Assembly: GCF_051622035.1 (NCBI RefSeq)
Contig: NC_135355.1
Coordinates: 36,251,986 to 36,315,985, forward strand
Reading direction: 5' to 3'
From: Arctopsyche grandis
Taxonomy: Eukaryota; Arthropoda; Insecta; Trichoptera; Hydropsychidae
Length of the DNA stretch: 64,000 nt
Below are positions 5,006 to 53,458 of the stretch, piece after piece; within the stretch, counting starts at the first letter, position 1; every line of letters begins with the position of its first letter. The notes under the pieces are model-generated. The model was not told where the DNA came from and did not search any database. It was given only the letters and a program-made list of their open reading frames with translations. The translations under genes were made by a program, and so were the position numbers.

Positions 5006-5470
5006 GTGGCCTTTTTACAAGGTATGCTAGGCTTTGACTCACTATCTTCGAGAAGAATTATTGCCATTTCCAAATATTTCTTTGGAGTATTAAAGGGAAG
5101 AATCGACAACCCTTCGATTTTATTGCAATTTAAATTTTCGGCGCCTGAATGCGGTAGAGCTTTGCGTCATCATTTACTTTTCCAACCTATTCCTGCGAAA
5201 ACGTCTGCTTTCAATAACTCGTCTCTTGTAAAGGCTATCCGGTTCCTTAATGTGATAAATGAACATTTGGACCTTTTGATTGTCATGTTGATGAACTGGT
5301 CAGTTTCATGAGATTCAACACTAGTCTATTTTAATGAGTTGAATGATTGCCAATTTTTATTGTTCTTTTCTTTTTTTTTGTAAGACTGGTGTGACGCATT
5401 GGGGCAACCTGCCAGGTCACATTGGTCATAATATTATTATTTATCCATTTACATAATGTATTTATTATAA
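5006..5470 (+). pseudogene. LINE ORF2 C-terminal remnant with 3' tail
   Basis: The + frame gives LGFDSLSSRRIIAISKYFFG followed by an ILLQFKFSAPECGRALRHHL-type stretch, the usual end of a Jockey/CR1-type reverse transcriptase ORF. The frame ends at 5311. A T-rich 3' region follows, then the tail CGCATTGGGGCAACCTGCCAG at about 5398-5420. That tail closely resembles the 3' end of the SINE family in this window. The element is strongly 5'-truncated and dead. Confidence 0.6.
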
Positions 5471-5533
5471 TAATAAATCAAATATAAAATAAAATTTTCT
5501 GTCGTTTAATAGACGATAAAATGATTTTTATAG

Positions 5534-5806
5534 CTAATTAATGTGATTGATGAGCATTTGGACCCGTTTCCTCACATTCAAAATTGCACGCATTGCTCTA
5601 CTCTGCACCTCCTGCAGTTTATCAACGCACAATCCACTAAATAGATTACTACATAGCATGCAGAAAACTCTTGCAACACTAATCCACATTGCGGTGTATA
5701 CAATTGGCGTCACACAACCATTCATCATGCAGAAAATAAAGTGCAAAAGTATGATTCGGCGCCCAGCAATATATTTTAATGATCGCAATCGAGAGCTTAA
5801 AGACAA
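5534..5806 (-). pseudogene. LINE ORF2 C-terminal fragment
   Basis: The - strand frame contains LQEVQSRAMRAILNVRK, the conserved motif near the C-terminus of Jockey/R1-type LINE polyproteins, preceded by a plausible PIVYTAMW region. No other part of the element remains in frame. The family is not resolved. Confidence 0.5.
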
Positions 5807-6435
5807 TTTATGGACCCATATATTTCATTTAGTCCGTGCGGCGGCTATAATTGAAAACTTTTTATTGCATTTAATAATTCAATATATGTATGTATTAATA
5901 CCACGTAGCTTCTTCTTCCACCCACGCAAACGAACAATCAACATATTACTCGAATGCCGTTTTTTTTTTCTGTTTCGTATTGTTTTTAAATGAAAAAATA
6001 TAGCACAAAGAGTATCCAACAAAGGCTTTAAGAGATAATGAAAGTGTATGTACATTGTACGGAATAGTTCAAATACATATACATACATACAGCGGGTGTG
6101 CTCGGGCCTCTCAATAGTCTAAACCGGAGAGACTGTGTAACAATGGCCAGATAAAACGCTAATGCTATGGCCCACGTCCGACGTTGGCCCTTTGAGTCTT
6201 GGCGACCGACAGCCCTATCTTAAGCGCCTCTTCTTAACCCTTACATGCCCGGATTCACTCCGTGAATTATCCCACGACAATAGCGCAAATTTCAAATTCA
6301 ATATTGGCCCCAGTGCGATAGTAGAATATTCGCTGTGCATGCATAACAAACATGCACAATGCCTTTGAATATCTGACAATGTATAGCTACAGATTTCCAC
6401 GAAATTGATTTCGATTTATGACGTTCGAATTGTGA
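5807..6435. other. No gene seen
   Basis: AT-rich sequence. At 6238 a TTAACCCTTACATGCC block recalls the TTAA-element ends near 14692, but no partner end was found. Confidence 0.4.
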
Positions 6436-26000: not shown

Positions 26001-29000
26001 GGTGTCACTGTACATGAAGGTATCATCTCATCCACCCTTCATTTGCACCAATATATCATTTGCAATTTTACCCCAAGACTAATTGATTGTAGTATTGATG
26101 AATTTGGTTGTAGACATATATAGACCTTTAAAATCACAGATATTATTGAAGTTTATGGAATCTAAGTTGATTTGGATATCACTTTTGATCCTCAACTCAC
26201 GTTTCACAACCACATCAAGACAGTTGCTGGTGTTTCCTTTCGTCGACTCGAAGGTTATTCTCCAAACCTTTATCGTATCACTTGCTTTTCAACTCGGGCT
26301 AGAGTAGTATAGCAAATTACTCTGTAGTGATTGAGAAAGTGCTGCCTACACAGTTCTTCAAGGAAACTCTCTACCTCTATCTATCATATCTCTACCCTAA
26401 TCCTTTCCTTTTGGGCTTGCTTGGGTATAATTCCCTTGAACTTTGAAGAAACTTCTCATTTATTCGTTTTGTTCTCTAGATTCTACGTGGTAATACCCGT
26501 CTGTTCCAGCCCGTTGTTGCTGCAGCAGTTGGGACTATCGTTTTCTATATAGGAAATAGTATGGGTTTTACCCATTTCTCTACCCTACTCCTTTCTTTTT
26601 GTGCATGCTTGGGTTTAATTCCCTTGAATTCGTTTTGCTTTCAAGCTTGTACGTGGTAATACGTCATACCCGTCGTTGCTGGAATAGTTGGGACATAATT
26701 ATTATGTTCCTAATAATTATGTGCGTGGTAGACATCATCATTTGATGGTTGTACCTCCTACCCGCACAGCTCTGTCGAATGGCTCCTGTTTCAAGAACTA
26801 CCTGACTTGTCAATGAAATTGTTGCTGCCGTGCCTGAATGTGATATATTCCACATCAGTGAGAGTAGATTATCAGAAATTTTTTAATCTATTTGTCTGGT
26901 AGTCTGCGCTCATCATTATTTCCATAATTCGAAGTGATTTATGAGTAAATTTTGATCTTCTCACCTCCATTCTGCCCTCACAGGGATGTTTTGTATTCGC
27001 GGCTTGTTCTTGCACTTACATATATTAATGCAAGACATTACCAATTTATTTTAATTTACACCGCGAAGCCCTAACAGCTAATCCCAATGCGCCTTCTTGG
27101 CCAGAACCATTGTACATTTGATACAAGTATTATTAGAATTATACAAAGTAAATACTTATCAAATTAACATCTACAAAGACATTTATGGTCAAATTTGTGA
27201 ATTTGCCGCATTTTATACAATTCAGCTAAATTTGAGATTGCTGAAAACTCGAAATTTGCGAGAAAATGGGTAAGGTTGCCAGTTTGTTGGAACCGTTTCA
27301 ATGAAAATCAGATAAATTGGCAAACTCTGATAGGAAACAATCGACCTGGAGTCACAAATCCAAGGTCTGGCCAGCAGAAACCAGTGGGATTTGAACCCGT
27401 AACCACTTTGTTCAAAGCATTATATGCTAACCACTAGTCTATTCTGCTAAATTTGAGATTGAAACTCGAGATTTGCGAGAAAATGGGTAAGGTTGCCAGT
27501 TTTTTGGAACCGTTTCAATGAAAATCAGATAAATTGGCAAACTCTGATAGGAAACAATCAACCTGGAGTCACAAATCCAAGGTCTCGCCAGCAGAAACCA
27601 GTGGGATTTGAACCCGTGACCACTTTGTTCAAAGCATTATATACTAACCAATAGTCTATTCTGCTAAATTTGAGATTGAAACTCGAGATTTGCGAGAAAA
27701 TGGGTAAGGTTGCCAGTTTGTTGGAACCGTTTCAATGAAAATCAGATAAATTGGCAAACTCTGATAGGAAACAATCGACCTGGAGTCACAAATCCAAGGT
27801 CTCGCCAGCAGAAACCAGTGTGATTTGAACCCGTGACCACTTTGTTTAAAGCATTATATACTAACCAATAGTCTATTCTGCTAAATTTGAGATTGAAACT
27901 CGAGATTTGCGAGAAAATGGGTAAGGTTGCCAGTTTGTTGGAACCGTTTCAATGAAAATCAGATAAATTGGCAAACTCTGATAGGAAACAATCGACCTGG
28001 AGTCACAAATCCAAGGTCTCGCCAGCAGAAACCAGTGGGATTAGAACCCGTGACCACTTTGTTCAAAGCATTATATGCTAACCAATAGTCTATTCTGCTG
28101 GTTATATTTAACCATTATTATATATGTTGTAACTACTTCAATTATTGTTTGAACTTTTACATATAATATGTATTTTCGACTATTGTGGCGCATTAAGAAT
28201 GCCTGTAATGCCAAAATGGTCCAAACTTTACATAAATAAAAGTACTTATACTGTGCAAATATTTCAGGTTGTTACGGCGTGTCTGACGTGACGAGTGAGT
28301 CGAGTACCGTCAGCTCTGCGTCGACCGAACCCTGGTTTTGTGACGCTTGCAAAGCAGGCGTCATGAATCCGACTTGCGAACTTTGTCCGAATACTGGTGG
28401 TATTTTTAAGGAAACCGAAGTCGGTGCTTGGGTTCATCTTGTTTGTGCGTTGTACGTGCCCGGAGTCGCCTTTTCGGAGGTTTGGATGCTTCTCTTGAAT
28501 GCTCGTGTAGCTCTGTATCGTTTTTTTTCTTTATTATATTTTCTTCAGGTTGATAAATTGTCTGGAGTTACTCTTTTCGAGATGGCTTATAACAGGTGGG
28601 GTGCTCGAGCGTGTTGTCTTTGCGAAGATGAACGATTTTCGAGGACCGGAATCTGCGTCGGTTGCGATGCTGGCTTGTGCAGAACTTATTTCCACGTTAC
28701 CTGGTAAACATGAATGCTGTTTAAAGTACATGCGTATTTTTTTCTAGTTTTTTTTTTATATATATTTGTTATTTTAGTGGTCAACGTGAAGGACTATTAG
28801 CCGAAGCACACACTGAAGAAGTCGAACAGGCCGATCCGTTCTACGCTCATTGTAAACTACATTCCGATAAGATGCTTATTAAAAAACAGAAACGAAACTG
28901 GTTAGCTTTGCAACTTCGTACCAATCACAGGTATTTTTTTATATTCAGTAGACTTATAATATATATATATTGTTTATTTACTGACGTCAACCAATCATTT

Positions 29001-31790: not shown

Positions 31791-34700
31791 CAGAAACTAA
31801 GGAAAAATATTGACTTTTTTCAATTTCATTAGTATCACAGGATATTTTTAGATGTCACTGTAAAGAAACCAAAATTAATTTTGAATCATAGTCTTATATA
31901 AGAAAGAGCGCGCACCGGTGCACATTTGACGATTAAGTAGTTAAATACCTCTAGGCGCAGCATATACTACTGGCATTCTAAAATTTGTTATTTTGAAATC
32001 TCCATACTTGTTGACGCGTCTGCCACATACATACATACGTCAAGTCCGTTTTTATATACATATATAATTGTATAATATTAATTTCTCATTTAATTACAAC
32101 AGACAGGGTTTTCCAACTGCTGCTGCCCTTAAAATGGGTTGTGGTTTTCCCTTACATTCAAATCCAGAGGAACATGTCGGAAAAGTTCTATCGACGTCTC
32201 GGCAAGGTAAATACAACACTCCCGTTTTAATACTCCAATAGAATGACTTATGTTGAATCGATTATTTATTTTAGCTGTTGTTGTAGGTGAAAATACGATT
32301 TCGCTGAACAACGAATGTGGAATATGTCGCCTTAAAACCGACCAACATTTGCTTGCTAAATGTGACACATGCCACTTATACTACCATCTCGGATGCTTAA
32401 AACCACCTTTGACTAGACTACCAAAAAAATCCAAGTTATACGGATGGTTAGTTCAAACACATGACATATTCGAATTCACTATCGTTGATTTGTTTATTGG
32501 AAATTTTTTTTTTTTTTTTATCTGCAGGCAGTGTTCGGAATGTGATAAAAGCTCGGAATCAGAAGCTGACGTTACGGAGCGTAAAATAGCGAGACGTTCA
32601 CGAGCGCGGTACAGTAAAGACGGCACCATCATACCCGCCGCGAACCGTTCACCCAGCGAGCTAAACACCGAGGTGAAAAACGACATAAAACCTGTAAAAC
32701 TCCACGCCATCAAAACAAAATGCGACAGCATGTCGACTTTGAAAGTGACAATCAAACCGGTGGAGCCTCCACCTCCTCCTCAAGATCCTCTGGACGTGTT
32801 TTCGACACTCGACCACCTGATGGACATCCAAGCTGTGGACCCGATAGCCATAAACTGCGAAAGCAAGCCATCCAAGAAAGAGAAAAAGATGAGGAAAACC
32901 AAAAAGCAAAACTTCGGCTACGCTTCCAGCTCGGCCAGTGACACACCGTCTAAGAAATCGCGAAAGCGAAGCTTCACGTCTCCCGCCTTGACGAATACTC
33001 CTCTCATGTCGATCACGCCTATCGTAGCCGACAGTCCTCACGATTCGCCGTCGCAGTTGGAGTGCTCGAACATGTCCGTCAACATCGAACAGATCAACAC
33101 GAACCAGATAACGTCGGACACGTCGTTTCTCTCGCCGAATTCCACGTTTTCAACCCTCCTGGCGAACAGTACGCTGAGCGCGTCCAATGCCAACAACGAA
33201 GAACACAATCCTCTTCTGATGACGCAGGAAGAGCAGCAGACTTACAAATCGAACAGAAAACGGCGAAAAGAAAAGCACCGCTCCAGATACTCTCCGGATT
33301 TGATGAGATCAACTAAAAGTCACAAGCATAAACGTAAAAAGAGATCGCTGTCGAAGGAGTGCCCCGATATTCCGCATCCAAGAATCACCATTAAAGTCAG
33401 CACTCTCAACTTTTCACATTCACGTATTCAGTATGCAGTAGTAGTTGTGCTAGATTTGTAATCGATTTTTAATTTTAGATAAAACCTATACCCAAACCAG
33501 ACGGTTCCGAAGATCCTCAGCTGTTTTACGTACCCACTGATAGCAATGACGGTCCTCCGCCTGATTTATTGAAACGGCAGTCTTCGAAAGTATGAATAGT
33601 TATATATTTTTTTTTGTACTTATTTTGTGATGAATTCTTATTTGAACGTGGCTTTTTTTTTTAGCATAAACATCAAGAGGAAACTATTACAGTATTTGAA
33701 CCGCCGCCAATTATTGCAGTAAGTTTTGTACAACTCGGTTATGAAATTGCAATTCAATTTCTTCAAGGAAAATTTGGTTTAATCTCAATTTGGATATGTA
33801 TTTTTATGTTTCCTTGTTTCGTAAACCTTTATTTTCTGCTTAAAAATATTAAAATTTCTTATTTAATGATTCGTTATGTTTCTTGAATCATATTTTTTTA
33901 TTTGAATTAACAATTTTCAAACCATATTTCTTGGTTTACAGTCGCCTATTAAGGATGATATTGTAAAGCCCGGTTCTTCCACTAGAAAAAAAAAGGTATT
34001 TTGGTTGCACACTAGGTTTAGTATGTATATATGAAATTAACATTTTAATTGAAGAGATTGTTCTTTTCACTGCATGTGCCTTCAAATTTCATCCAAATTA
34101 TAGAAAACAAATGCTTTTACATTTGTTTTCTATTATAATTTTTAACTTAAATTGAATGCAACAGTTCTGCAAACAAGATCCAACCCATGGATAGCCAGCA
34201 GTACGGCTCGGTGGTTGCCTTTATGTTTAGCATTGAGAGATTACCAGGTTCGACCCCATGCTAATCTTCAATACTGCTGGTCAAACTTGGATATTTGTGC
34301 CTCCAAGTCGATCATTTCCTATTTATGAGTTTGCCAATTGATCTGATTTCATTGTTGAAACGGTTCCTATAAAATTGGCAAAAACCATCCTACCCGCTAT
34401 ATCACAAATATCTGAATTTGATTTATGTACAAGTCTAAATCCATAGATGTCTCTATGGATTAATTAATTAATTGATTTTTCTTCCGCCTCTCGAAATACA
34501 GCTGCAATGTTTATAATTAATTGTCTAGGAAGGCGCATTGGGGTTTACTTGATAGGCCTTCCTGGTATATATCTATGTAAAAAAATAAAATAAAAATATG
34601 AATAGTATTTGCTCAAAATTACTACTCAAATTGGGTTGGATCTTATTGTTAAAATCAAACCCAACTAGCCGATTCAGTATTGTCTTTCACATTAGTATTT

Positions 34701-40439: not shown

Positions 40440-40860
40440 TTCATTAGCCAGCAACATGGCTCGGTCGTTAAGCTTCTGCTTAACACCGAGAGGCACCGGG
40501 TTCAATCCCATGAACTGATCTCGGTTGAAAAGAAATTTTCTGAGTACATCTGTAGTTCTGCTGGTCAGACTTGGATATTTGTGACTCCAGGTCGATCGTT
40601 TCCTATCAGAATTTGCCAATTTTCTCTGATTTCATTGTTGAAACGGTTCCCATTTAAAATTGGCTAAAAATCTTCCTACCAACTATGTCACCACTGTTTG
40701 AGTATGATTAATGTACAATAAAATTTATGTACAAGTTTTTCAGTGTTTCGTAATATAAATGCTGCATTGTTTGTAATTGACCAGGAAGGCGCATTGGGGT
40801 TTTCCCTGTAAGACCTTCCTGGTATATATGTAAAATAAATATACCCAAATAATATGCTGA
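40440..40860 (+). repeat. SINE, first of a pair upstream of CutA copy 1
   Basis: Head AGCCAGCAACATGGCTCGG, B box GGGTTCAATCCC, tail AAGGCGCATTGGGGTTTTCC and GGTATATATGTAAAATAAA. Its tail half recurs at 47575, and its head at 61395. Confidence 0.8.
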
Positions 40861-40934
40861 TTAATTGTGTTAACATTCTGACAGCTTTATAAACGCTACA
40901 GTTGCATATCGTATAGTTATTGGCCATATATAAG

Positions 40935-41385
40935 TATTAGCCAGCAGTGTGGCTCGGTGTTTGCCTTTATGTTTAGCACCAAGAGGTTGCCAGGTTCGAT
41001 GCCGTGCTAATCTTCAATGCTGCTGGTCAGACTTGGATATTTGTGACTCCAAGTCGATCGTTTCCTATCAGAGTTTGCCAATTTCCTGATTTCATATTTG
41101 AAACGGTTCGTCCATCAAATTGGCAAAATTCATACTATCGCTATGTCACAAATATCTGAATTTGATTTATTTACAATATGTATGTAAAAATTTATGTACA
41201 AGTTTAAATCCATAGATGTCTATGAATGAATTAATTAATTGTTAATATCATGTTCTTCAGCCTCTTGAAATACAGCGATTTATCTAATAAAAAATGCTGC
41301 AATGTTTATAATTAATTGTCTAGGAAGGCGCATTGGGATTTACCGATTATGCCTTCCTGATATATATCTATATAAAAAAAAAAAC
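40935..41385 (+). repeat. SINE, second of the pair upstream of CutA copy 1
   Basis: Head TAGCCAGCAGTGTGGCTCGG, B box CAGGTTCGATGCC, tail AAGGCGCATTGGGATTTACC. Orthologous insertions at 47750 and 61627 show that it was present before the segment was duplicated. Confidence 0.85.
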
Positions 41386-41389
41386 AAGA

Positions 41390-42312
41390 TATTGTGTATT
41401 AACTAGAAGAATAGGCAATTTAATACACAAGTTGTAGAAGTACGAGTAGTTCTACGTAAGGGGTCTACCTCACGGCACCGAAAGTGAAAAGGTCGAAAAA
41501 ACAAATATCGGAAGGCAAAGATCGAAAAAAAAGGGTGCATGATAAACGGTACTATGTATATATAATATATATGAGTGACATGCGGTGAAATTATCTCTCT
41601 TTTTGTCATACAGCCTTGTTTAATGTGCGCGCGCAGGATACGGGAGGAAAAGACTGTTCCGCTTGTTCCTGTTGTATCCTGCTCGCATAAATTAAGTGAG
41701 GATGTACGACGGGGGGAGAGAGAGCTTTACCGCACGCCACTGATATACATATATACTAACCGTTTTTCATATATATGCATGGTAAATGAACATTTTCAAC
41801 TTTTTTGCGGTCACCCCTACTAAAGGTAGTGTTTTTATATTTTTTGTATTGAAATCTAAGTGGCCAAATGTGTTTTCTGGTAAACGGATTATTTCGCACA
41901 GTGCAATCGCGCAATCGTTGCCACGAAAATCGCGAATACGGGATATTTGGCACTCGAGTTTTCATTAGTATGATAGTTCGCCTGATTGTCTCTCGATGGA
42001 TAGAATTTTCGAGTGCCAGATGTTCCGTTCAAACGGTCACGAGAAAACTGGTTGACCGATTTTAGGGTGTGACCAATTTCTCGTGACATTTTCGAAATCG
42101 TTTTATGCGGAATAATCACAACCGTGTTTTCTATACAATTTGAAAATCACTATCGGTCAGTGTTGCCTAAGAGAATTTTTTAATAAAATCAATACTCTCG
42201 ACTTGTACTGGCAGCACACGCACTTTGCACACTGTCAGATCTGTAAAAATGTAAGAACCCCGTTTTCGTTGCTAGCTGCTGCTTTCATATGGCATTAACT
42301 CATTACACTGCA
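41390..42312 (+). promoter_or_regulatory. Duplicated 5' flank of CutA copy 1
   Basis: Shared with 48200-49232 and with 62845-64000. It contains TACCGCACGCCACTG (41731-41745), which is an inverted hAT-type end (CAGTGGCGTGCGGT). It also contains AACATTTTCAACTTTTTTGC near 41787, the empty version of the solo-LTR site in the other two blocks. The 80 bp before the ATG are well conserved between copies 1 and 2 and presumably hold the core promoter; no TATA box is evident. Confidence 0.5.
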
Positions 42313-42985
42313 ATGGCTGAAGGTATTTGCAGGGTCTATTGATAATTTGTTTATATTTATATTACAAAAATTGCATTGTTGGTGCAACTATTTTAAAACT
42401 GACTGGTGAATAAATACCCGTCCCATACTTTTGTATTATACTTTCCTTTTCAATCGACTGGTGTGTGTTGTATCAGTTTGAACAAATTTCAGGTATGTAC
42501 TCTATAGTTTACGTGATAGTACCAACCGACGGTGTGGGCAAAAACATAGCACGGAAGATAATCGAAAATCAACTTGCAGCTTCTGTCAATATCATACCCG
42601 ATGTCATCTCTTTTTTTAACCGGAATCAAGTACTAATCGAAAAGCCCGAGGTAGCCATCACTAGTATAACATTATGATCATTGAAATCGCATCAAAAAAA
42701 TAATTGAATTTGTTTTTTTTTCGCTCATAGAAAATAATAAGTTGTATTGTTCACTACTTTGTTTTGAAAAGTTATATAAAAATAGTAATTATAAAAACTA
42801 ATATTGAGGATGATATCTTGTAGGTTCTGATGATGATGAAGACGCGTACGTCCAGAGTGAACGATCTAATAGAATTTGTCAAAGAAAACCATCCGTTCTT
42901 TGTCGCCGATATTATATCGACCCCTATCCAATATGGAAATCGGCCATATCTGAAATGGATAAGTGATTCAGTACCAGAAATTTAA
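42313..42985 (+). CDS. CutA: CutA family protein, copy 1 (three exons)
   Basis: Exons 42313-42322 (MAE plus one base), 42493-42650 and 42824-42985 give 109 residues; all introns are GT-AG with phases 1 and 0. CutA proteins are small cytosolic ferredoxin-like trimers linked to divalent-metal tolerance. Family hallmarks are seen in order: MYSIVYVIVPTDGVGKNIAR, the ENQLAASVNIIP helix-strand block, VLMMMKTRTSRVNDLIEFVK, and ENHPFFVADIIS then YLKWISDSV. The usual Cys of the AACVN motif is Ser here, the Trp of the hairpin (IYEWKG in typical members) is lost, and the Glu after HPY is Phe. The length equals bacterial CutA, with no signal peptide. Upstream and intron sequence are shared with copy 2. 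AATAAA signals follow near 43021. It is probably functional, because an intact frame survives strong change. Confidence 0.85.
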
Positions 42986-43109
42986 AAAATAATACTCTTC
43001 CTTTTATGATTTAATTATAAAATAAATAAATATTATTGAAAAAATCTGACTTTTATTTTAATGGTGTTGTGAACTTTGTTCAATTGTTTTTAATTAAAAT
43101 CCTTTCATG

Positions 43110-43460
43110 ACCAACGGTATATATACTATATATAAAAACGGACTGTCGCTAAATATATATATTTGTATTTTTGTATATTTGTATGTGACGTACGATCAAC
43201 CATCAACCAGTATGGGGAACAAATTTTTTTTTTTTCATTTTTTTCAGTTTTTTCTTTTTTTTCATTTTTTCAGTTTTTTCATTTTTTCAGGTTTTTCATT
43301 TTTTTCACTTTCAGTTTTTTCATTTTTTTCATTTTTTCAGTTTTTTCATTTTTTTTCATTTTTTCAGTTTTATATATATATATATATTTATAAATAAAAA
43401 AAAAATAAAAATTCTATTAAAAATTTAAAAAATTCGAAATATATATATATATATATATAT
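43110..43460 (+). mobile_element. Helitron-like element, left part (split by hAT)
   Basis: It starts TATATAAAAACGGACTGTCG, passes GATCAACCATCAACCAGTAT and GGGGAAC, then a run of CAGTTTTTTCATTTTTT units (43230-43368). An AT-rich arm reaching the hAT TIR at 43461 follows. The inverse of that arm continues after the hAT (46356-46445), so the hAT sits in the (AT)n loop of a palindrome. Confidence 0.6.
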
Positions 43461-46352
43461 CAGTGGCGGGCGGTGACTTTTCAAACAAGGGATGCTGTCC
43501 CTTGTTTGAAAAAAAAAACCGACCAATTTATTTTTTTAAATTTAATTTTATTCTTCGTTCCTTTTTACAAAATTCATCGATAACCGCATCATAGAATTTT
43601 TTATTGTTTTTTAAATTTGACATTATTTTCTTTTCGATTGCAATTAAAGCAAGACCAGAGAGTCTTTCTTCACTTTGACTACTTCTGGTGAACGTTTTAA
43701 TTCTTTTCATAGTCGAAAATGATCGTTCAGCCGATGCGCTCGTGGAAGGTATCGTACAAATTAATTGTATTAAACTAAATACTTGTTCCAAAACGTCTAT
43801 TAGATCATCTTTCACAATTAATTCCTTTACGTCATTTATAGATTTCAAATGAAAATCTTGCGTTGAGTACATGTAAATTAATTCGCTTTTTAATTTCATA
43901 AAATCAAAGTATTTTCCATAAGTTAGGTGGAGTGATTTAAATAGGATATCTGGAAAATTATTTTCATATTCTTTAAATTTTTTGACGTTAAAAAAAATTA
44001 AAAGAAATTTTAAATTTTCGATATCTCGAAATCGATTGGTTGTATTTACTGAAAGAGTTTCTAAAATTTCAGAATAGTGAAGTTTATACGTTGTTTTCAC
44101 ATCTTCTTCACATTCAGCATATTTTCTTTTTCTATTAAAATTTTTAGTTATTACTTTGTTCCACAATGAATCAAAATCGTCTTTTTTGTTACCTAAATAT
44201 TTTACAATTTTTTTAATTTCACTTACGCAATACGATATGTCAAAGGTTTTTTTTTGTAAAATTTCAAATAAAAAATCTGCCGAATTAAATATTGCAGAAA
44301 ATAAATGCAAATTGAAATTGAATTCAAACTCTTTTAAATAACGATGAAGGACTTCAGCATTTATGACAGCATCAGTATCCCATTCGTCTTCGTCATTAAT
44401 TATTTGATTAAATATTTCCATTAATTCTGTTTGATATTCTAATATCATATTTAAAATTTTGCTATTGTAGTTCCATCGTGTAGGGGCAGCAGTGGGAAAT
44501 CGTTTTTTTATTTGACAATCGAGAAGGGAAATTCTTCTTGAAGACTTACAAAAAAAAGTTGAAAATGACAACATACGGCTGAAAAAACGTTTGCATCCGG
44601 ATATATGTTTAACAGATTGCGACAAAACTAAATTCAATCTGTGAGCGTAACAATGGACAAATAAAGAATTAGGACAAATATCTCGAATTTTTCGTTGCAC
44701 TCCATTATGCTCCCCGGACATTACAGCCGCTCCATCGTACGTTTGTGCAATTAATTTGTCCAAACAACCAAATTCTTCCAAGGTCTCACGTATGTGCTGA
44801 AAAAGAGCATTAGCTGTTCTATTGGGACTAACATCGACAAATCCAACAAATCTCTCCTGAATTTCATTATTTTCATCTACATATCTAAAAATAGTAGATA
44901 GCTGAGCTTTGCGACTGATATCTGTAGATTCGTCCACAATTATGGAAACAAATTTTGATGCACGTATTTCAGTTTTAATCTCATCTAGCAAGACTTTTGA
45001 TATTGCGGATACCAAGTCATTTTGTATATGGTTCGATAGTCCAGTAAACACCGTAGAGTTATCTAAATGAGTTTTCAATTTTATGTCTGATTCACTCAAC
45101 AGATACAGCAATTCAATATAATTCCCTCTATTTTCCGATTCCTGGTGCTCAAAATGTCCTCGTAAAGGTTGTTCTTGTTTTGCTAAAAAATAGATCGCGC
45201 TTATTAATTTCGACAAAATGTATCTATTTGCAGTAACTTCTTTGTTGTGCATTTCAATATTTGCTTTAAATTGAGCACTTAAAAAATTTTCTATACGAGG
45301 TCCCTTTCCAAATTTTTTAAATTGAGCAGCAGAACATATGTGAGCTTGAGAACATTCATGTCTCTTGCGCGATTTACTTAAATTGTTTAGGTCAGAAAAT
45401 CCAAATTTACTCCAGACATTCACTTCTTGAGAAAATAAAATACATGGCCAACAGAATAATTTCGTTAAGTGAGCACATCCACAAATCCATGAAATTTTTT
45501 CGTATGTTTCTGTGTTAAAATACCTTTTAAATGTTTTTGTTTTAGACTGAATATTTAATATTGGTGTGGGTTTGGGGCTCTTAACAATAATCTCCTTTTC
45601 ATTAAATGGGAGAGAAGCAAATCTTCTTTTCAGCACATTTTCAATTAAACAATTGCAATTATTATTGATCTCGACGACAAGTCCACTCTCATTGTTATTT
45701 TCGATATCCATATTAAAGGCAATAATGAAAACTCGTAAGTAGTGGAACGTAAACTAAAAATAAAGTTAGACGAAACTAATTTAAATGAAAACTTAATTCA
45801 AAAGTAAAAAATAACCAACTTACAGTATAAATGATTAACTTCGTCTAAAGAAATGAATCGGCTAGCTTTTTGATAAATAACTTGGGGCGTAGCGTGCGGA
45901 AATATCGATCAACAGCGGCTTCCAAGTGAAACTCAATAGATAAGCAAACAGAGAAACCGAATCCACCGTAGAGGTTAAACAAGTGTCAACGCGTCCGCGC
46001 GAATAAGACAGCCTCATAGTGCGCATGCGCAAATGGGATCGGTCGCGACTCCGAATCCATGACGCGCGCGCACTTCACTCAGCGTCTACTCGCCAGCGTC
46101 ACTCGCCTGTGGCCGGCCTATGCGAATGCGGCCTATGCGAATCCTTAATAAAAATTATCAAAAGATCCTATATAATGCATCATGTAACAAAAAACACGTG
46201 ATATGTGAAATATATATCATATACTACATCATAATCACGTACATCACTAAGAATACATCGAAGCGAAATTCAAATATTTATTAAAAATACTCTTGGCTTT
46301 TTAAAGTTATAGGGGATGCGCCGCATCCACCGCATCCATGGACCGCACGCCA

Positions 46353-46355
<3 letters not shown>
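43461..46355 (-). mobile_element. Complete hAT transposon, 2895 bp
   Basis: Ends CAGTGGCGGGCGGTGAC and (inverse) CAGTGGCGTGCGGTCC enclose one intact transposase gene. Flanks on both sides are (AT)n, so an ATATATAT 8-bp duplication is compatible but not demonstrable. Near the left end is a perfect hairpin: TTTTCAAACAAGGGA, a 5-nt loop, then the inverse (about 43477-43511). With both ends and an open transposase, the copy may be recently active. Confidence 0.88.
43528..45711 (-). CDS. hAT transposase, ZMYM1/DUF4371-like, 727 aa
   Basis: Cut-and-paste transposase acting on the hAT ends around it. Order: N-terminal TTF-type zinc finger (about residues 70-130; SWICGCAHLTKLFCWPCILF and HECSQAH), DUF4371-type region (EQPLRGHFEHQESENRGNYI), and the RNase-H-like catalytic fold with VSIIVDESTDISRKAQLST (first acidic residue) and TYDGAAVMSGEHNGVQ (second). 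The CYAHRLNLVL motif follows, then a helical insertion. The C-terminal dimerisation domain has SASAERSFSTMKRIKTFTRS and a SGLALIAIEKK end. No stop or frameshift. The start MDIENNN at 45711 is the first ATG with a clear downstream domain. Mobile-element gene, not a host gene. Confidence 0.92.
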   Translation of the reverse strand: MDIENNNESGLVVEINNNCNCLIENVLKRRFASLPFNEKEIIVKSPKPTPILNIQSKTKTFKRYFNTETYEKISWICGCAHLTKLFCWPCILFSQEVNVWSKFGFSDLNNLSKSRKRHECSQAHICSAAQFKKFGKGPRIENFLSAQFKANIEMHNKEVTANRYILSKLISAIYFLAKQEQPLRGHFEHQESENRGNYIELLYLLSESDIKLKTHLDNSTVFTGLSNHIQNDLVSAISKVLLDEIKTEIRASKFVSIIVDESTDISRKAQLSTIFRYVDENNEIQERFVGFVDVSPNRTANALFQHIRETLEEFGCLDKLIAQTYDGAAVMSGEHNGVQRKIRDICPNSLFVHCYAHRLNLVLSQSVKHISGCKRFFSRMLSFSTFFCKSSRRISLLDCQIKKRFPTAAPTRWNYNSKILNMILEYQTELMEIFNQIINDEDEWDTDAVINAEVLHRYLKEFEFNFNLHLFSAIFNSADFLFEILQKKTFDISYCVSEIKKIVKYLGNKKDDFDSLWNKVITKNFNRKRKYAECEEDVKTTYKLHYSEILETLSVNTTNRFRDIENLKFLLIFFNVKKFKEYENNFPDILFKSLHLTYGKYFDFMKLKSELIYMYSTQDFHLKSINDVKELIVKDDLIDVLEQVFSLIQLICTIPSTSASAERSFSTMKRIKTFTRSSQSEERLSGLALIAIEKKIMSNLKNNKKFYDAVIDEFCKKERRIKLNLKK

Positions 46356-46399
<44 letters not shown>

Positions 46400-46610
46400 C
46401 GAATTTTTTTAATTTTTAATAGAATTTTTATTTTTTTTTTATTTCACAACAATCAACGTCGTTCCCCATACATCAACCAGTATGGGGAACAATTTTTTTT
46501 TTCATTTTTTTCATATTTTTCAGTTTTTTTTCAGTTTTTTTCAGGTTTTTTCAGTTTTTTTCATTTTTTTCATAATTTTCATAATTTTCATTTTGTTCAT
46601 TACAATTAAA
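46356..46610. mobile_element. Helitron-like element, right part (split by hAT)
   Basis: (AT)n, then ATTTCGAATTTTTTTAATTT, the inverse of the sequence left of the hAT. It continues with CAACCAGTATGGGGAACAAT and another CAGTTTTTTTC-type array to about 46600. The orientation change suggests two Helitron copies head to head, or one palindromic one. Confidence 0.55.
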
Positions 46611-46938
46611 TATTACAAAAGAGTTAAATTAATAACATCCAGTGGTATTTATACATGTACAGATTTTGATTTTTGATCAAACAGGCACAATTGACAGAGG
46701 GAAAAAAAGCATAATTGTAAACAATAAGCCAGCAGTATTCGTAATGGTTGGTTTTTTTTTTTATTAAATCACAAACGGCATATAATTTTCTATAATTGGA
46801 TTGAAATGCTTGAGCAATATAAGAATCGTCATCCCGAACATCACTGCAACATGTCTTTATTTCAATTTCCTAATACAAGTTTAATTATATTATTCCGTGA
46901 CACTAAAATACTTCTATAATGAATTTGAAGAATAACAT
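46611..46938. other. No gene seen
   Basis: AT-rich, with a bare SINE-head-like AAGCCAGCAGTATTCG at 46727. No further feature supported. Confidence 0.4.
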
Positions 46939-47190
46939 TGTTATATACTTCTTATTATAAACTTCAGTTTGATTTACCAAATGTTTTCTGAAATCTGCTC
47001 TAATATCAGGTCTAAGTTGTAGTTCTAGTTCAGTATTCTTCCTCTGGTTGTTGTTATATGCAGTGCTTGATTTTTTTTGTTGACTAAATAATGATATTTT
47101 GCAGATGAGTGAAAATCGTTTGAGTATTGAACCAGCACCAACACCTAGTCGACGAAGCGGGGCCTCAAACACAACTCTTAATTCGTCTAA
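46939..47190 (+). pseudogene. Duplicated fragment of PHF14 intron 16 and exon 17
   Basis: Nearly identical to 36364-36627 apart from a roughly 13-bp intron deletion and a few substitutions. It keeps the acceptor TTTTGCAG and the codons for MSENRLSIEPAPTPSRRSGA, then breaks off after TCGTCTAA, before the PHD4 zinc ligands. The copy is orphaned 9.8 kb downstream of the gene end, but its acceptor is intact and could act as a cryptic exon. Confidence 0.9.
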
Positions 47191-47560
47191 TGGTCCGTAC
47201 CCACCAAACCAACGACGATTTTGGGCCAACTTTTAAAACCAGTAGCGTAAAAAATATCGAAATAAAAATTAAATTAAAAAATTGAAATTAAATATCAAAA
47301 TTAAGCTAAAGAGCGAGATTGAGCTAAAATTAGATCATCGTTGATGTTTTGAATTACAACAATGTTTTGAATTACGACGATACGCATTACAACCCGAGAA
47401 ATATTATAATTTCTCTGATTACCTTGTTGTTATTTCTTATTAAAAGTCGTCACGATATACTACTGTGTTTCCGCCATCGATGAAACATTTAACAAAAAAA
47501 CTGTCGGTGATTTGTCAAAGGGTTTTTTTTTCTTTCGTCTCGTTAATTTCAGTGTCTCGT
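47191..47560. other. Unclassified segment
   Basis: AT-rich sequence between the PHF14 fragment and the SINE tail of the CutA copy 2 block. Not found elsewhere in the window. Confidence 0.4.
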
Positions 47561-47569
47561 AATTCAACG

Positions 47570-48195
47570 ACTTATAATATAAATGCTGCATTGTTTGTAA
47601 TTGACCAGGAAGGCGCATTTGGGTTTTAAGTAAGGCTTCCTGGTATATATGTAAAATAAATAAATAAATATACCCAGATAATATGCTGGTTATTTGTGTT
47701 AACATTCTGGCAGCTTTATAAACGCTACAGTTGCATATCGTATAGTTATTGGCCAGCAGTGTGCCTCGGTGTTTGCCTTTATGTTTAGCACCAAGAGGTT
47801 GCCAGGTTCGATGCCGTGCTAATCTTCAATGCTGCTGGTCAGACTTGGATATTTGTGACTCCAAGTCGATCGTTTCCTATCAGAGTTTGCCAATTTCCTG
47901 ATTTCATATTTGAAACGGTTCCTCCATCAAATTGGTAAAAATCATCCTATCGCTATTTCACAAATATCTGAATTTGATTTATTTACAATATGTAAAAATG
48001 TATGTACAAGTATAAATCCATAGATGTCTCTATGAATGAATTAATTAATTGTTAATATCATGTTCTTCAGCCTCTCGAAATACTGCGATTTATCTAATAA
48101 AAAATGCTGCAATGTTTATAATTAATTGTCTAGGAAGGCGCATTGGGGTTTACCGGTTATGCCTTCCTGATATATATCTATATAAAAAAAAAACA
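47570..48195 (+). repeat. SINE tail plus full SINE upstream of CutA copy 2
   Basis: 47570-47665 matches the 3' end of the SINE at 40440, and 47750-48190 matches the SINE at 40935. The order and spacing equal those of the copy 1 block. Confidence 0.85.
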
Positions 48196-48520
48196 ATATA
48201 TTGTGTATTAACTAGAAGAATAGGCAATCTAATACACAAGTTGTAGAAGTACGAGTAGTTCTACGTAAGGGGTCTCCCTCACGACACCGAAATTGAAAAG
48301 GTCGAAAAAACAAATATCGGAAGGCAAAGATCGAAAATCATACAGCCTTGTTTAATGTGCGCGCGCAGGTTGCGGGAGGAAAAGACTGCTCCGCTTGTTC
48401 CTGTTGTATCCTGATCGCACAAATTAAGTGAGGATGTACGACGAGGGGAGAGAGAGTTTTACCGCACGCCACTGATATATATACTAACCGTTTTTCATAT
48501 GTTTGCATGGTAAATGAACA

Positions 48521-49049
48521 TGTAAGACAGGGAAGGTATGTTGACCGTATCCCGGTCTAACGAAACACATGTTGTGTAGTTTGAAAGAGAATGGTTTATT
48601 TTCGTTCAATTTGGTACAATGGTTATTGTATGTACGAAGAGGTTTCTTCGTAGAAGTGATCTGTATGAACTCCAGAGGCTCACTCTGCCAGTGGAGCTTG
48701 CTGCGTTGCTTTATAAACGTTTTGGGTTGGAGCGTGTCGTGTGCAAATCCTTTGTTCTTGGTACTCTTGATGTAAGCGATGACCTGTTTCGAGCACGTGT
48801 ACATGTGACACGTGTTGAGTGCATTTTCCTTTGTTCCTGGTACTCGCGCTGGCCTAGTTATGCTGCGAGCGTGGTTTTTATGGGTTCAGTGCCAGGACGT
48901 GGTCCGTTGGGTAATGGGATCGTGCACCGAGCGTATGGTGCACCGACCTCTTTATGAGGCGATCGAGGAACACTTGCGGTATTACGACTTTTCTGGATAT
49001 GTGTCGCAGTGGCCTGATGAGATCATATGAGTTGTACTATATGCCTACA
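48521..49049 (-). mobile_element. Solo LTR, 529 bp, in the CutA copy 2 flank
   Basis: TGTAAGACAG … GCCTACA with AACA duplicated on both sides (48517-48520 and 49050-49053). The same insertion is present at 63226 and absent at about 41787. Sense is the - strand: TTTATAAAGC resembles a TATA box and AATAAACCATTCTC a polyadenylation signal. GTTTCGTTAGACCGGGATAC is shared with the LTR at 62055. ORFs of 60-112 codons inside are not supported as genes. Confidence 0.85.
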
Positions 49050-49232
49050 AACATTTTCAACTTTTCCACTGTCGACTTTTTTACGGTCACCCCGAGAGTA
49101 TTAAAAAATCAATACTTTCGACTTGTACTGGCAACACTCGCACATTGCATACTGTCAGATCTGTAAAAATGTAAGAACCCCGCTTTCGTTGCTAGCTGCT
49201 GCTTTCATATTTCATTAACTCATTACACTGCC

Positions 49233-49949
49233 ATGGCTGAAGGTATTTGCAGGGTCTATTGATAATTTGTTTATATTTATATTCTCAGGTCAAAAATTGC
49301 ATTGTTGGTGCAACTATTTTAAAACTGACAGGTGAATAAATAACCCGTCGCATACTTTTGTATTATACTTTCCTTTTCAATCGACTGGTGTGTGTTGTAT
49401 CAGTTTGAACAAATCAATGTTGGTAATTTCAGGTATTTACTCTATAACTTACGTGACAATACCAAACGAAGAGGTGGGCAAAACCCTAGCATGGAAGATA
49501 ATGGAAAATAAACTAGCAGTTTGTGTCAATATCATACCCAAAGTCATCTCTATATATAAATTGAAAAATCAACTAATCGAAGATTCCGAGGTAGCCATCA
49601 CTAGTATAATATTATGATCATTGAAATCGCATCAAAAAAATAATTTAATTTTTTTATTATTTTTCATTTGTTTTTTTTTCGCTCATATAAAATAATAAGT
49701 TGTATTGTTCACTACTTTGTTTTGAAAAGTTATATAAAAATAGTAATTATAAAAACTAATATTGAGGATGATATCTTGTAGGTTCTGTTGATGATCAAGA
49801 CGCGTACGTCCAGAGTGAACTATCTAGTAAAATTTGTCCGAGAAAACCATCCGTACTTTGCCTGCGAAGTTATATCGACCCCTATCCAATATGGAAATCG
49901 GATATATCTGAAATTGATAAGTGATTCAGTACCAGAAATTAAAAAATAA
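49233..49949 (+). CDS. CutA: CutA family protein, copy 2 (three exons)
   Basis: Exons 49233-49242 (MAE plus one base), 49433-49590 and 49782-49949 give 111 residues, with splice sites and phases identical to copy 1. Motifs: IYSITYVTIPNEEVGKTLAW, ENKLAVCVNIIPKVISIY, IEDSEVLLMIKTRTSRVNYL and ENHPYFACEVISTPIQYGNR. This copy keeps the Cys of the CVN motif and the IEDSEV block of typical CutA, but has lost the Arg of IARKI (Trp here) and the Trp of YLKWI (Leu here). A 1-base deletion at the end adds two Lys before the stop. Against copy 1 there are 38 changed codons, 37 of them amino-acid changing, whereas the introns are almost identical. It is presumably expressed from the duplicated promoter. 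Confidence 0.83.
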
Positions 49950-50536: not shown

Positions 50537-50747
50537 AGATTATCAAAGTTTTTCACTAAGAGCTCGAATTAAAAAATATTCTTTAATCTTCAAATTCTAA
50601 AATTTTAAAATTCAAATCCCTTAGATTATCAAAGTTTTTCATTAAGAGCTCGAATTAAAAAATATTCTTTAATCTGCTTTAGAAATTATATTTCTCTTAT
50701 TCAAAATAATATTAAAACTAATCCCAAATCATTTTGGTCAAAATGAT
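50532..50747. repeat. Inverted and duplicated 5' part of the LINE
   Basis: A 60-bp block (ATCCCTTAGATTATCAAAGT …) occurs twice (50531 and 50618). Then about 48 bp up to 50737 are the inverse of the sequence just after it; the core AACTAATCCCAAATCATTTT pairs with AAAATGATTTGGGATTAGTT. This looks like a 5' inversion made during LINE insertion. Confidence 0.75.
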
Positions 50748-52408
50748 TTGGGATTAGTTTTAATATTATTTGGAATAAGAGAAATAAATTCAAAAAAAAA
50801 TACCTCCTCTTCATATCCTTCCGTAATGTATTATGGAAATAAGTCGGCTTCACATGGTTCTGAAATCTGTACCATTTTTGCTGACTATTTTGACTCCACT
50901 TTCAATAGTGATTCTACCATTAACCTTTCTATCTCTAATACAGATACTTCTTCTTGTAACTTATCTACTTTTCATTTTGACTTATCTACTGTACTCAGTC
51001 ACATCAACTCTCTCAATGATAATCTTGGTGCGGGTTGTGATGGTTTGCCTTATTTTTTTCTTGTTAAATGTGCTGTCCCATTATCTCTTCCCATAACAAT
51101 CCTTTTCAATCTTTCTATGTCTAACGGTAAATTTCCTGACTATTGGAAATTATCTTACATCACCTCTATTTTTAAAAAAGGTGATAAGAATCTTATTGAG
51201 AATGACCGTCCTATATCTAAACTATCTGTCATTAGTAAAATCTTTGAAAAAATTATCTATAATTTCCTTTTCTCCAATTTCAAAAACTACATTATACCTG
51301 AACAACATGGTTTTTTTAAGGGGAGATCGGTAGAGACTAACCTGCTTAATTTCACTAGTACTCTCACATCTTATATGGACAAACGAATCCAAATAGACGT
51401 CGTTTATACGGATTTCTCTAAAGCTTTTGATAAAATCAATCACAACCTATTACTCAATAAACTTTGGTCCCTCGGAATCCGAGGAAATTTATTTCGTTGG
51501 ATCTCTTCGTATATACTAAATCGTCACCAAATCATAATTCTCAATGGTTTTAGATCATCACTTAGACATATTCCTTCCGGTGTCCCACAAGGGTCGCATA
51601 TAGGTCCCTTATTCTTTTTACTCTATATTAATGATATCTCATACATCTTCAAACATTCCTTTATACTTCTTTACGCTGATGATTTAAAAATTTACAAACC
51701 TATATACACCATAGACGATTGTCATAAGATACAAGAAGATCTAGATAGATTATCTATATATTGTTTAAATAATGATCTTTTTATTAATCTAGAAAAATGC
51801 TCTATTTTAAATTTCACTAGAAATAAGTCAATTATTACTAATCAATATCAATTAAATCATTCAATCCTTAACACGTCATCTTCTATTAAAGATCTTGGTG
51901 TAATACTCAATAATAAACTAGATTTCTCTGAACATATTTCTTTTATTACCAACAAAGCATTTAAATCTCTTGGATTCCTACTCCGCTCAACAAAACCCTT
52001 TAATGATCCTTATGTACTAAAATTACTTTATTTTTCCTTTGTAAGGTCTCACCTTGAATTTGCCTCAATTATCTGGTCACCTTTTTATTTATCCCATATT
52101 AATTGTATTGAGAAAGTTCAACTTAAATTTATTAAATCCTTACGCTACCTTTTTCCTACCTATACCCATTCTACTGTTTCCGACATTTTAAAAATCCTTT
52201 CTTTTAACAATCTTTCTGTCAGGCGACGACATACTGATGCTATATTCTTCTTTAAGCTCATAAATGATTTCCTTGATTGTTCTGATTTACTGAATAAGGT
52301 TAATTTCAGAATCCCAGTTCGATACTCTAGACGCGTTGCACTCTTTTCACTTGATCCTTTCAATACTAATTCCCAAAAATATTTTTATCTGCAGCGCGTT
52401 TATCGTAT
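50748..52408 (+). pseudogene. Non-LTR retrotransposon reverse transcriptase, 5'- and 3'-incomplete
   Basis: One open frame covers nearly the whole RT: fingers (DYWKLSYITSIFKKGDKNLI), the SVISKIFEKIIYN block, DVVYTDFSKAFDKINHNLLL with the first catalytic Asp, GVPQGSHIGPLFFLLYINDI, and the second catalytic site YADDLKIY. The thumb and C-terminal region follow (SSIKDLGVILNNKLDFSEHI). The palm motifs fit the Jockey/CR1 group. The endonuclease is missing (5' truncation with inversion), and the frame is cut at 52408 by the TRIM insertion, whose sequence supplies the last 56 false codons. The catalytic core itself is undamaged, which suggests a young insertion. Confidence 0.88.
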
Positions 52409-53458
52409 TGTGGCGGCTCGCTTATACGACATGGTCGAGTTTGGTTGCCTTCCTGCGAGTGGGGACCAACCCGGCTGGGTTCGGAGAGCCGCTACTCACT
52501 CTGTCTTCAGCTGTCATATAATAAACACGTGCATTAACATGCCAGTCGTCTCATTCGTTCATCCCCTATACTGGTGACCCCCGACATCGAGCCACGCAGC
52601 CTCGATCAATTTCAACATGCCGCTCATCCCTGCCTCGCCGAGCCCCCATCGCCATCAACACAGCACGCCGCGGCCCGCGGGTGACAATAAACGAGCAGAC
52701 ACGGCTACCTACCTACCTACCTACCTGGAGTCCAGCCACAACGTCGATGACAGGTGCTTAAAAAAATGGGGGAGCGAATGAGACGACGATCTTGACAGCT
52801 GGATGTGGAGTCATGCGCGATCCACTACACATAGAACGGTCATCCAGCACCACAAGACATACACCACCTCAGCACCATCATCATCATCAAGGCCCCGTCC
52901 GTCCCCACGAGCGTCGTCACGCCGAGACGGGCGGTAGCGCTACAACACCTCCACGAGCCACAACGACTCACAGTCCAGCTCGGAGTATCATCAACCACAT
53001 CGATGCCCCTGCCGCCCCCGCCGCCCCACCAACCAACATCAGCCTCGGAAGAGCGGCGCCGCCGCAGCATCGCATCGGCGCGACCATCGGACCAGCCACC
53101 GTCCTGCTCGCGACGTCACCGCCCTCGAATCTACCGACCATTCAGGGCGGTACACCTACACAGCAGATGACCCACGTCAACAATTTTTTTCTCCCCACTC
53201 AATAATTTTTTTTCTCTTTGTGTAACAATAATTTTTTTCTTTTGTAAAATTTGTTTCTTTGTAATTTTGGTATCGCTGATGCTGGGGGAGGAGTGATGTG
53301 GCGGCTCGCTTATACGACATGGTCGAGTTTGGTTGCCTTCCTGCGAGTGGGGACCAACCCGGCTGGGTTCGGAGAGCCGCTACTCACTCTGTCTTCAGCT
53401 GTCATATAATAAACACGTGCATTAACATGCCAGTCGTCTCATTCGTTCATCCCCTATA
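52409..53458 (+). mobile_element. TRIM (miniature LTR retroelement), 1050 bp
   Basis: Two virtually identical 162-bp LTRs (52409-52570 and 53297-53458) start TGTGGCGGCTCGC and end CATCCCCTATA. A tRNA-primer-like TGGTGACCCCCGACATCG follows the first LTR, and a purine tract GGGGGAGGAG precedes the second. The interior (about 725 bp, GC-rich) has one 137-codon Pro/His/Thr-rich frame (52792-53205) with no retroviral motif. It is inserted in the LINE reverse transcriptase. The target duplication is unclear (GTAT left, GTGT right). Confidence 0.82.

Follow-up and report, generated by a model that had tools for sequence, protein, structure and literature searches.

Replacement changes outnumber silent changes in tandem CutA genes of the caddisfly Arctopsyche grandis, probably through positive selection

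CutA is an ancient gene and is normally very conserved. In the caddisfly Arctopsyche grandis, two neighbouring CutA copies have introns that are almost the same and exons that are not, which raises the question of what has driven the exons apart. The first-pass annotation of the window (the whole stretch of 64,000 nucleotides that was analysed) read this contrast as the work of selection, and here we assess that reading using all three CutA copies of the genome. CutA proteins are described, in an extract from a 2010 account, as occurring from bacteria to mammals and as unusually stable, with functions that were not well clarified at that date (PMC3004244), while expression variants of human CUTA are the subject of a further paper, again available as an extract (PMC5522412).

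A whole-genome search with the Pfam family PF03091 (6 exon matches among 7 candidates) places the three CutA genes of this genome within one cluster. Two of them, c1 and c2, lie inside the window and the third, c3, the copy closest to the family consensus, lies past its end, at 5257-5973 of region L007, which would be window positions 64272-64988. They have a common three-exon layout with GT...AG introns throughout. Copy c1, on the + strand, consists of exon 1 (42313..42322, ATG GCT GAA G), intron 1 (42323..42492, GT...AG, 170 bases, the c2 and c3 counterparts being 20 longer), exon 2 with the first half of CutA (42493..42650, 31.4 bits against PF03091), intron 2 (42651..42823, GT...AG, 173 bases) and exon 3 with the second half and the stop (42824..42985, 45.2 bits). 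Copy c2, also on the + strand, consists of exon 1 (49233..49242, part of the public-set protein P0002), intron 1 (49243..49432, GT...AG, 190 bases), exon 2 (49433..49590, 44 bits), intron 2 (49591..49781, GT...AG, 191 bases) and exon 3 with the stop (49782..49949, 37.7 bits). The c3 exons score 59.9 and 51.9 bits, and all three copies lie above the curated cut-off of 22.4 bits, exon by exon, as members of the CutA1 family. The frames of c1 and c2 are both open, and the exon coordinates, intact frames and intact splice sites first proposed for these two genes are confirmed. An alternative possible start for c1 is the in-frame ATG at 42289, 8 codons 5' of the exon 1 ATG and different from the leader ATG of c3. 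Because of one extra T at its stop, c1 ends two codons earlier than c2 and c3, and the sole exon gap in the alignment used is of one base, at the c1 stop. Among known proteins, P0002 (111 aa) is identical to c2 and P0001 (135 aa) to c3 including its leader of 24 residues, both being from Arctopsyche grandis (Trichoptera, Hydropsychidae); c1 is absent from the best 120 of the 2270 proteins matched by an alignment headed by c1, and is probably missing from that public protein set.

The window holds several other open frames. A repeat-flanked insert between c1 and c2 holds a 741-codon hAT-type transposase frame (43528-45753, - strand, with DUF4371 and a hAT dimerisation domain), a 634-codon frame that encodes a reverse transcriptase domain (RVT_1) lies a short way downstream of c2 (50673-52577, + strand), and frames with PHD-type zinc-finger domains are found at 28240-28707 and 32247-33461, both on the + strand.

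The N-terminus divides the copies. That of c3 is extended in frame by a leader, MLCATNVRTPFSLLAATFICRYTA ahead of MAEG (P0001; region L007 5068-5266), which by eye resembles the leaders of moth CutA proteins. Copies c1 and c2 are leaderless, the leader ATG being missing, the frame shifted and 8 extra bases present at that spot. The leaders of moth CutA suggest the direction of this change, namely that the leader would have been lost on the branch to c1 and c2, perhaps sending their products to a different compartment.

Between c1 and c2, differences affect 38 of the 109 sense codons, with 37 replacements and 1 silent change, and 49 of 327 bases, while the introns differ at 3/170 and 3/173 bases (6/343 in total) and the 3' flank at 8/128. 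A recount thus bears out the figures originally given for this pair (37 replacement, 1 silent, about 49 substitutions and few intron changes). Pathway resolution of the codons with multiple changes gives about 46 replacement against 3 silent substitutions, a less extreme contrast, counted per substitution, than 37:1. The other pairs point in the same direction, with 36 replacement and 4 silent codons for c1 against c3 and 22 and 3 for c2 against c3. By the Nei–Gojobori method, dN and dS are 0.208 and 0.042 for c1-c2 (dN/dS 4.9), 0.185 and 0.079 for c1-c3, and 0.097 and 0.042 for c2-c3; intron divergence is 0.018, 0.018 and 0.016 in the same order, and that of all local non-coding DNA is 0.043 to 0.045. 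The three-way counts and the joint model described below cover only columns without gaps, and exclude the stop codon as well as the two final codons of c2 and c3. With only some 73 silent sites per pair, Fisher tests of replacement against silent sites give p 0.0012 for c1-c2, a marginal 0.048 for c1-c3 and a non-significant 0.13 for c2-c3, and tests of replacement sites against introns give 8e-13, 2e-11 and 1e-5, respectively. Identity to c3 is 67% for c1 and 80% for c2, and among the 118 homologues used the best match to c3 is 70% identical (the moth Ostrinia) and the median 65%; on these sequence identities, c1 stands about as far from c3 as the caddisfly gene stands from the genes of other species.

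Codon models lead to the same excess. The first-pass annotation had proposed a dN/dS check, and on exons alone the ratio is above 1, a model of the three copies together with one omega giving 4.2 (LRT 11.4 against omega 1, p 7e-4). With three free omegas (p 5e-4) the estimates are 9.2 for c1 and 0.9 for the stem/c3 branch, that for c2 lying at its bound because c2 has no silent change. Omega is 3.1 (p 0.012) without codons 44-55, the densest cluster, 3.4 (p 0.019) for exon 2 and 6.6 (p 0.014) for exon 3. A joint model of the exons with the 5' flank, introns and 3' flank estimates omega as 9.4 for c1, 3.3 for c2 and 1.5 for stem/c3; fixing omega at 1 on c1 and c2 is tested with an LRT of 56.5 under one shared neutral rate and, when the exon rate is left free, of 21.4 (p 2e-5), and the fitted silent rate of the exons is 0.92 of the non-coding rate. 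In a further count, changes at most 2 bases apart were fused and two sites at which all three copies differ, both replacements, were set aside, which leaves replacement to silent ratios of 20:1 for c1, 12:0 for c2 and 8:3 for the stem, or 32:1 on the terminal branches of c1 and c2 together (p 0.0012). The replacement excess therefore survives both the masking of codons 44-55 and the merging of neighbouring changes. Neutral simulation from c3 yielded one silent codon or fewer between c1 and c2 in 27, 27 and 12 of 20,000 runs (kappa 1.0, 1.4 and 3.0).

Positive selection on the branches of c1 and c2 is thus probably the main cause of the replacement excess. The view that both lineages had moved also holds, since c1 and c2 have their own changes, mostly at different sites. 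The first-pass annotation went further and likened the process to the diversifying selection of venom and immune genes; here selection is supported statistically, and three copies from one genome would fit diversifying and one-off directional selection alike.

The places where the changes fall were assessed over positions 7-106, using 118 of the best 120 of 401 homologues, P0001 and P0002 having been removed. There are 27 own changes in c1 and 14 in c2, with 5 sites at which all three copies differ counted for both, and 15 of those in c1 and 8 of those in c2 introduce residues seen at that site in none of the 118 homologues. Sites conserved at 95% or more make up 42 of the 100 and take 10 of the 27 changes in c1 and 5 of the 14 in c2; the mean conservation of changed sites is not significantly below random (p 0.11 for c1, 0.18 for c2), and such random-like changes at conserved sites resemble those of unconstrained genes and are compatible, too, with the old function having been lost in the process. 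The changes of c1 are clustered in codons 44-55 (9 changes in 12 codons, p 0.01), a stretch that includes Y45 and W47, and some of them may be multi-base events; by eye, an alternative alignment of c1 with in-frame gaps is possible at codons 48-50. Those of c2 show no clustering beyond chance (p 0.76), and the overlap of 5 sites changed in both copies is not above chance (p 0.27). Copy c1 has no cysteine, and c2 and c3 have two each.

The altered sites include a group of aromatic residues. Residue numbers here follow chain 3ahp, which we take to be the SIB1 structure and whose residues 8-107 align with 8-107 of c3. In SIB1-CutA1 of Shewanella, Y45, W47, Y81, Y98 and W101 are reported, in the extract cited above, as residues at the interfaces between subunits, and the proposal there is that they lock the trimer (PMC3004244). 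All five are present in c3 under identical numbers. In c1 there are three replacements, Y45F, W47R and Y81F, with Y98 and W101 kept, and in c2 there are two, W47L and W101L, with Y45, Y81 and Y98 kept, so that the aromatic cluster that characterises CutA1 is intact in c3 and broken in c1 and c2. Four of the five are altered in one or both copies, against 5 of 23 other sites conserved at 99% or more (p 0.026, for a set of residues chosen post hoc). This loss makes it less likely that the two copies work as ordinary CutA trimers, and leaves the case for their CutA descent where it was. A tentative reading of the residue pattern, in itself less probable than not, is that selection may have rebuilt the subunit interface or the ligand site beside it, which would be its most likely target.

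The non-coding surroundings are less orderly. A duplicated flank lies 5' of c1 (40751..41793, + strand) in two pieces that match 47575-48337 and 48338-48521 of its counterpart 5' of c2 (47575..48521, + strand), with 25 and 9 substitutions over 788 and 188 aligned positions, gaps counted in. A short repeat occurs twice 5' of c1 (40548-40669 and 41010-41129) and once 5' of c2 (47822-47941), and falls into families D11 and D16. Upstream of c2 there is also an element that we read as a solo LTR (48521..49049, strand not assigned), 529 bases long with TG...CA ends and 4-base AACA flanking repeats, and it recurs upstream of c3 with 3 differences in 528. The counterpart site at c1, in a 19-base stretch from 41782, contains AACA just once and lacks the element, and after it comes a second, separate gap some 18 bases long. 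A simple tree of the three copies was rejected, as the LTR joins c2 with c3 and the leaderless state joins c1 with c2, together with residues that these two share away from the family majority (L51, N69, Y93 and R96). From these conflicting groupings the CutA locus looks like a mosaic whose copies have exchanged sequence, and the similarity of the introns is no pure clock.

This exchange, visible in an LTR shared by c2 and c3 alone, is an argument for exons that are old and introns that are young, conversion having kept introns and flanks alike while selection purged the tracts that covered exons. Silent sites (4.2, 7.9 and 4.2% for c1-c2, c1-c3 and c2-c3) do exceed introns (1.6 to 1.8%), with p 0.20, 0.0097 and 0.16, respectively, and the c1-c2 introns also lie below the upstream flanks, although not significantly (p 0.10, approximate counts). 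Since the copies have exchanged sequence and their introns fall below their silent sites, the raw contrast of exons and introns overstates the effect, and part of the near-identity of the introns may be due to conversion or chance. Conversion could in this way explain some 2.4- to 4.5-fold (silent sites over introns) of the contrast between exons and introns, but not the contrast of replacement with silent changes: old exons predict a silent density at least equal to that of replacements, whereas per site silent changes are 2.3 to 4.9 times rarer. Conversion would moreover need to halt near four exon edges, and the exon silent rate in the joint fit, at 0.92 of the local non-coding rate, led us to reject old exons with converted introns as the sole or main cause; we consider this explanation unlikely. 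Mosaicism is thus a weakness of the exon and intron argument and leaves the replacement and silent argument untouched, and of the original case for selection the excess on exons alone stands and the use of introns as a clean neutral clock does not.

Relaxed constraint in decaying copies, combined with a raised exon mutation rate or multi-base mutation clusters, would account for changes that largely disregard conservation and, in c1, are clustered. Open frames are weak evidence against it, as chance alone leaves both open in a fraction of 0.105 to 0.178 of the neutral simulations, and with omega held at 1 a 3.4-fold rate in the exons improves the fit greatly (lnL -1695.27 against -1712.85). 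Freeing the omegas along with the rate nevertheless fits better still, by 11.5 log units (lnL -1683.78), and the replacement excess persists when neighbouring changes are merged and when codons 44-55 are masked; nor is any process known to us by which mutation would rise in the exons of a pseudogene only. Simple decay was rejected as the cause on account of the replacement excess and the worse fit of the omega 1 models, and even its compound form seems improbable to us. A mistake of assembly, or unpurged haplotypes taken for tandem copies, might be suspected from the 2.97% of duplicated BUSCOs listed, in an extract from a survey of caddisflies, for A. grandis assembly GCA_029955255.1, which may not be the assembly analysed (PMC11381090). 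The three copies share a single contig of 42.7 Mb and are separated by inserts that differ, and errors or alleles would have no reason to favour replacement over silent changes; the differing inserts and the replacement bias led us to reject a haplotype artefact, which we regard as very improbable.

Under positive selection, the favoured explanation, one CutA gene with a leader, of which c3 would be the best present-day representative, would have been tandemly duplicated in the Arctopsyche lineage. After the split of c1 and c2, selection would have fixed many replacements in both copies, with its strongest effect on c1. Silent sites and non-coding DNA would meanwhile have drifted at an ordinary rate. 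Unequal crossing-over or gene conversion would have swapped some non-coding stretches, so that the introns may look still more alike. The paralogues of a homotrimer will assemble with one another as long as the interface stays the same, so that separate assembly or a separate ligand would need a rebuilt interface, and we infer as the target and benefit of selection a protein that may no longer mix with c3 or no longer bind its ligand. It is a doubtful further step, and we put it forward as speculation from sequence, that c1 and c2, leaderless and with a broken aromatic lock, might stand outside the CutA homotrimer as a new, fast-evolving cytosolic sub-family with an arms-race-like role in caddisflies, evolving faster than its own introns; this analysis found no sign of a toxin or immune role for either copy.

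Selection would here have pushed c1 and c2 through nearly invariant sites within some 2 to 8% of intron, flank or silent divergence. The locus would be a natural experiment in how a duplicated homotrimer parts from its parent and which sites matter, and a test case for a conserved three-part protein escaping its constraints, with a set of proteins (c1, c2 and c3) that is directly expressible and testable. No earlier report of such CutA copies was found in a literature search of titles and the starts of abstracts, with subscription journals mostly outside its scope.

Compared with the CutA1/CUTA family (PF03091), all copies match and c3 keeps the five aromatics and, by eye, a moth-like leader, whereas c1 and c2 are leaderless with 3 and 2 of the 5 aromatics altered, and c1 is cysteine-free. 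Work on paralogue interference holds, in the extract available, that duplicates of homomers co-assemble initially and that heteromer loss may be needed for independent function (PMC6711710), and the residue pattern of c1 and c2 would be consistent with such a course. A parallel in rate is the accelerated evolution of tandem genes in snakes, where, in the part of the account available, the small serum protein array of the habu has a KA/KS of 1.739 between SSP-1 and SSP-2 with an intron divergence of 0.0649 (PMC6609765). As in the CutA cluster, the replacement rate exceeds the silent rate in recent tandem copies; unlike the habu array, the CutA pair c1 and c2 reaches a dN/dS of 4.9, and does so in a normally conserved family.
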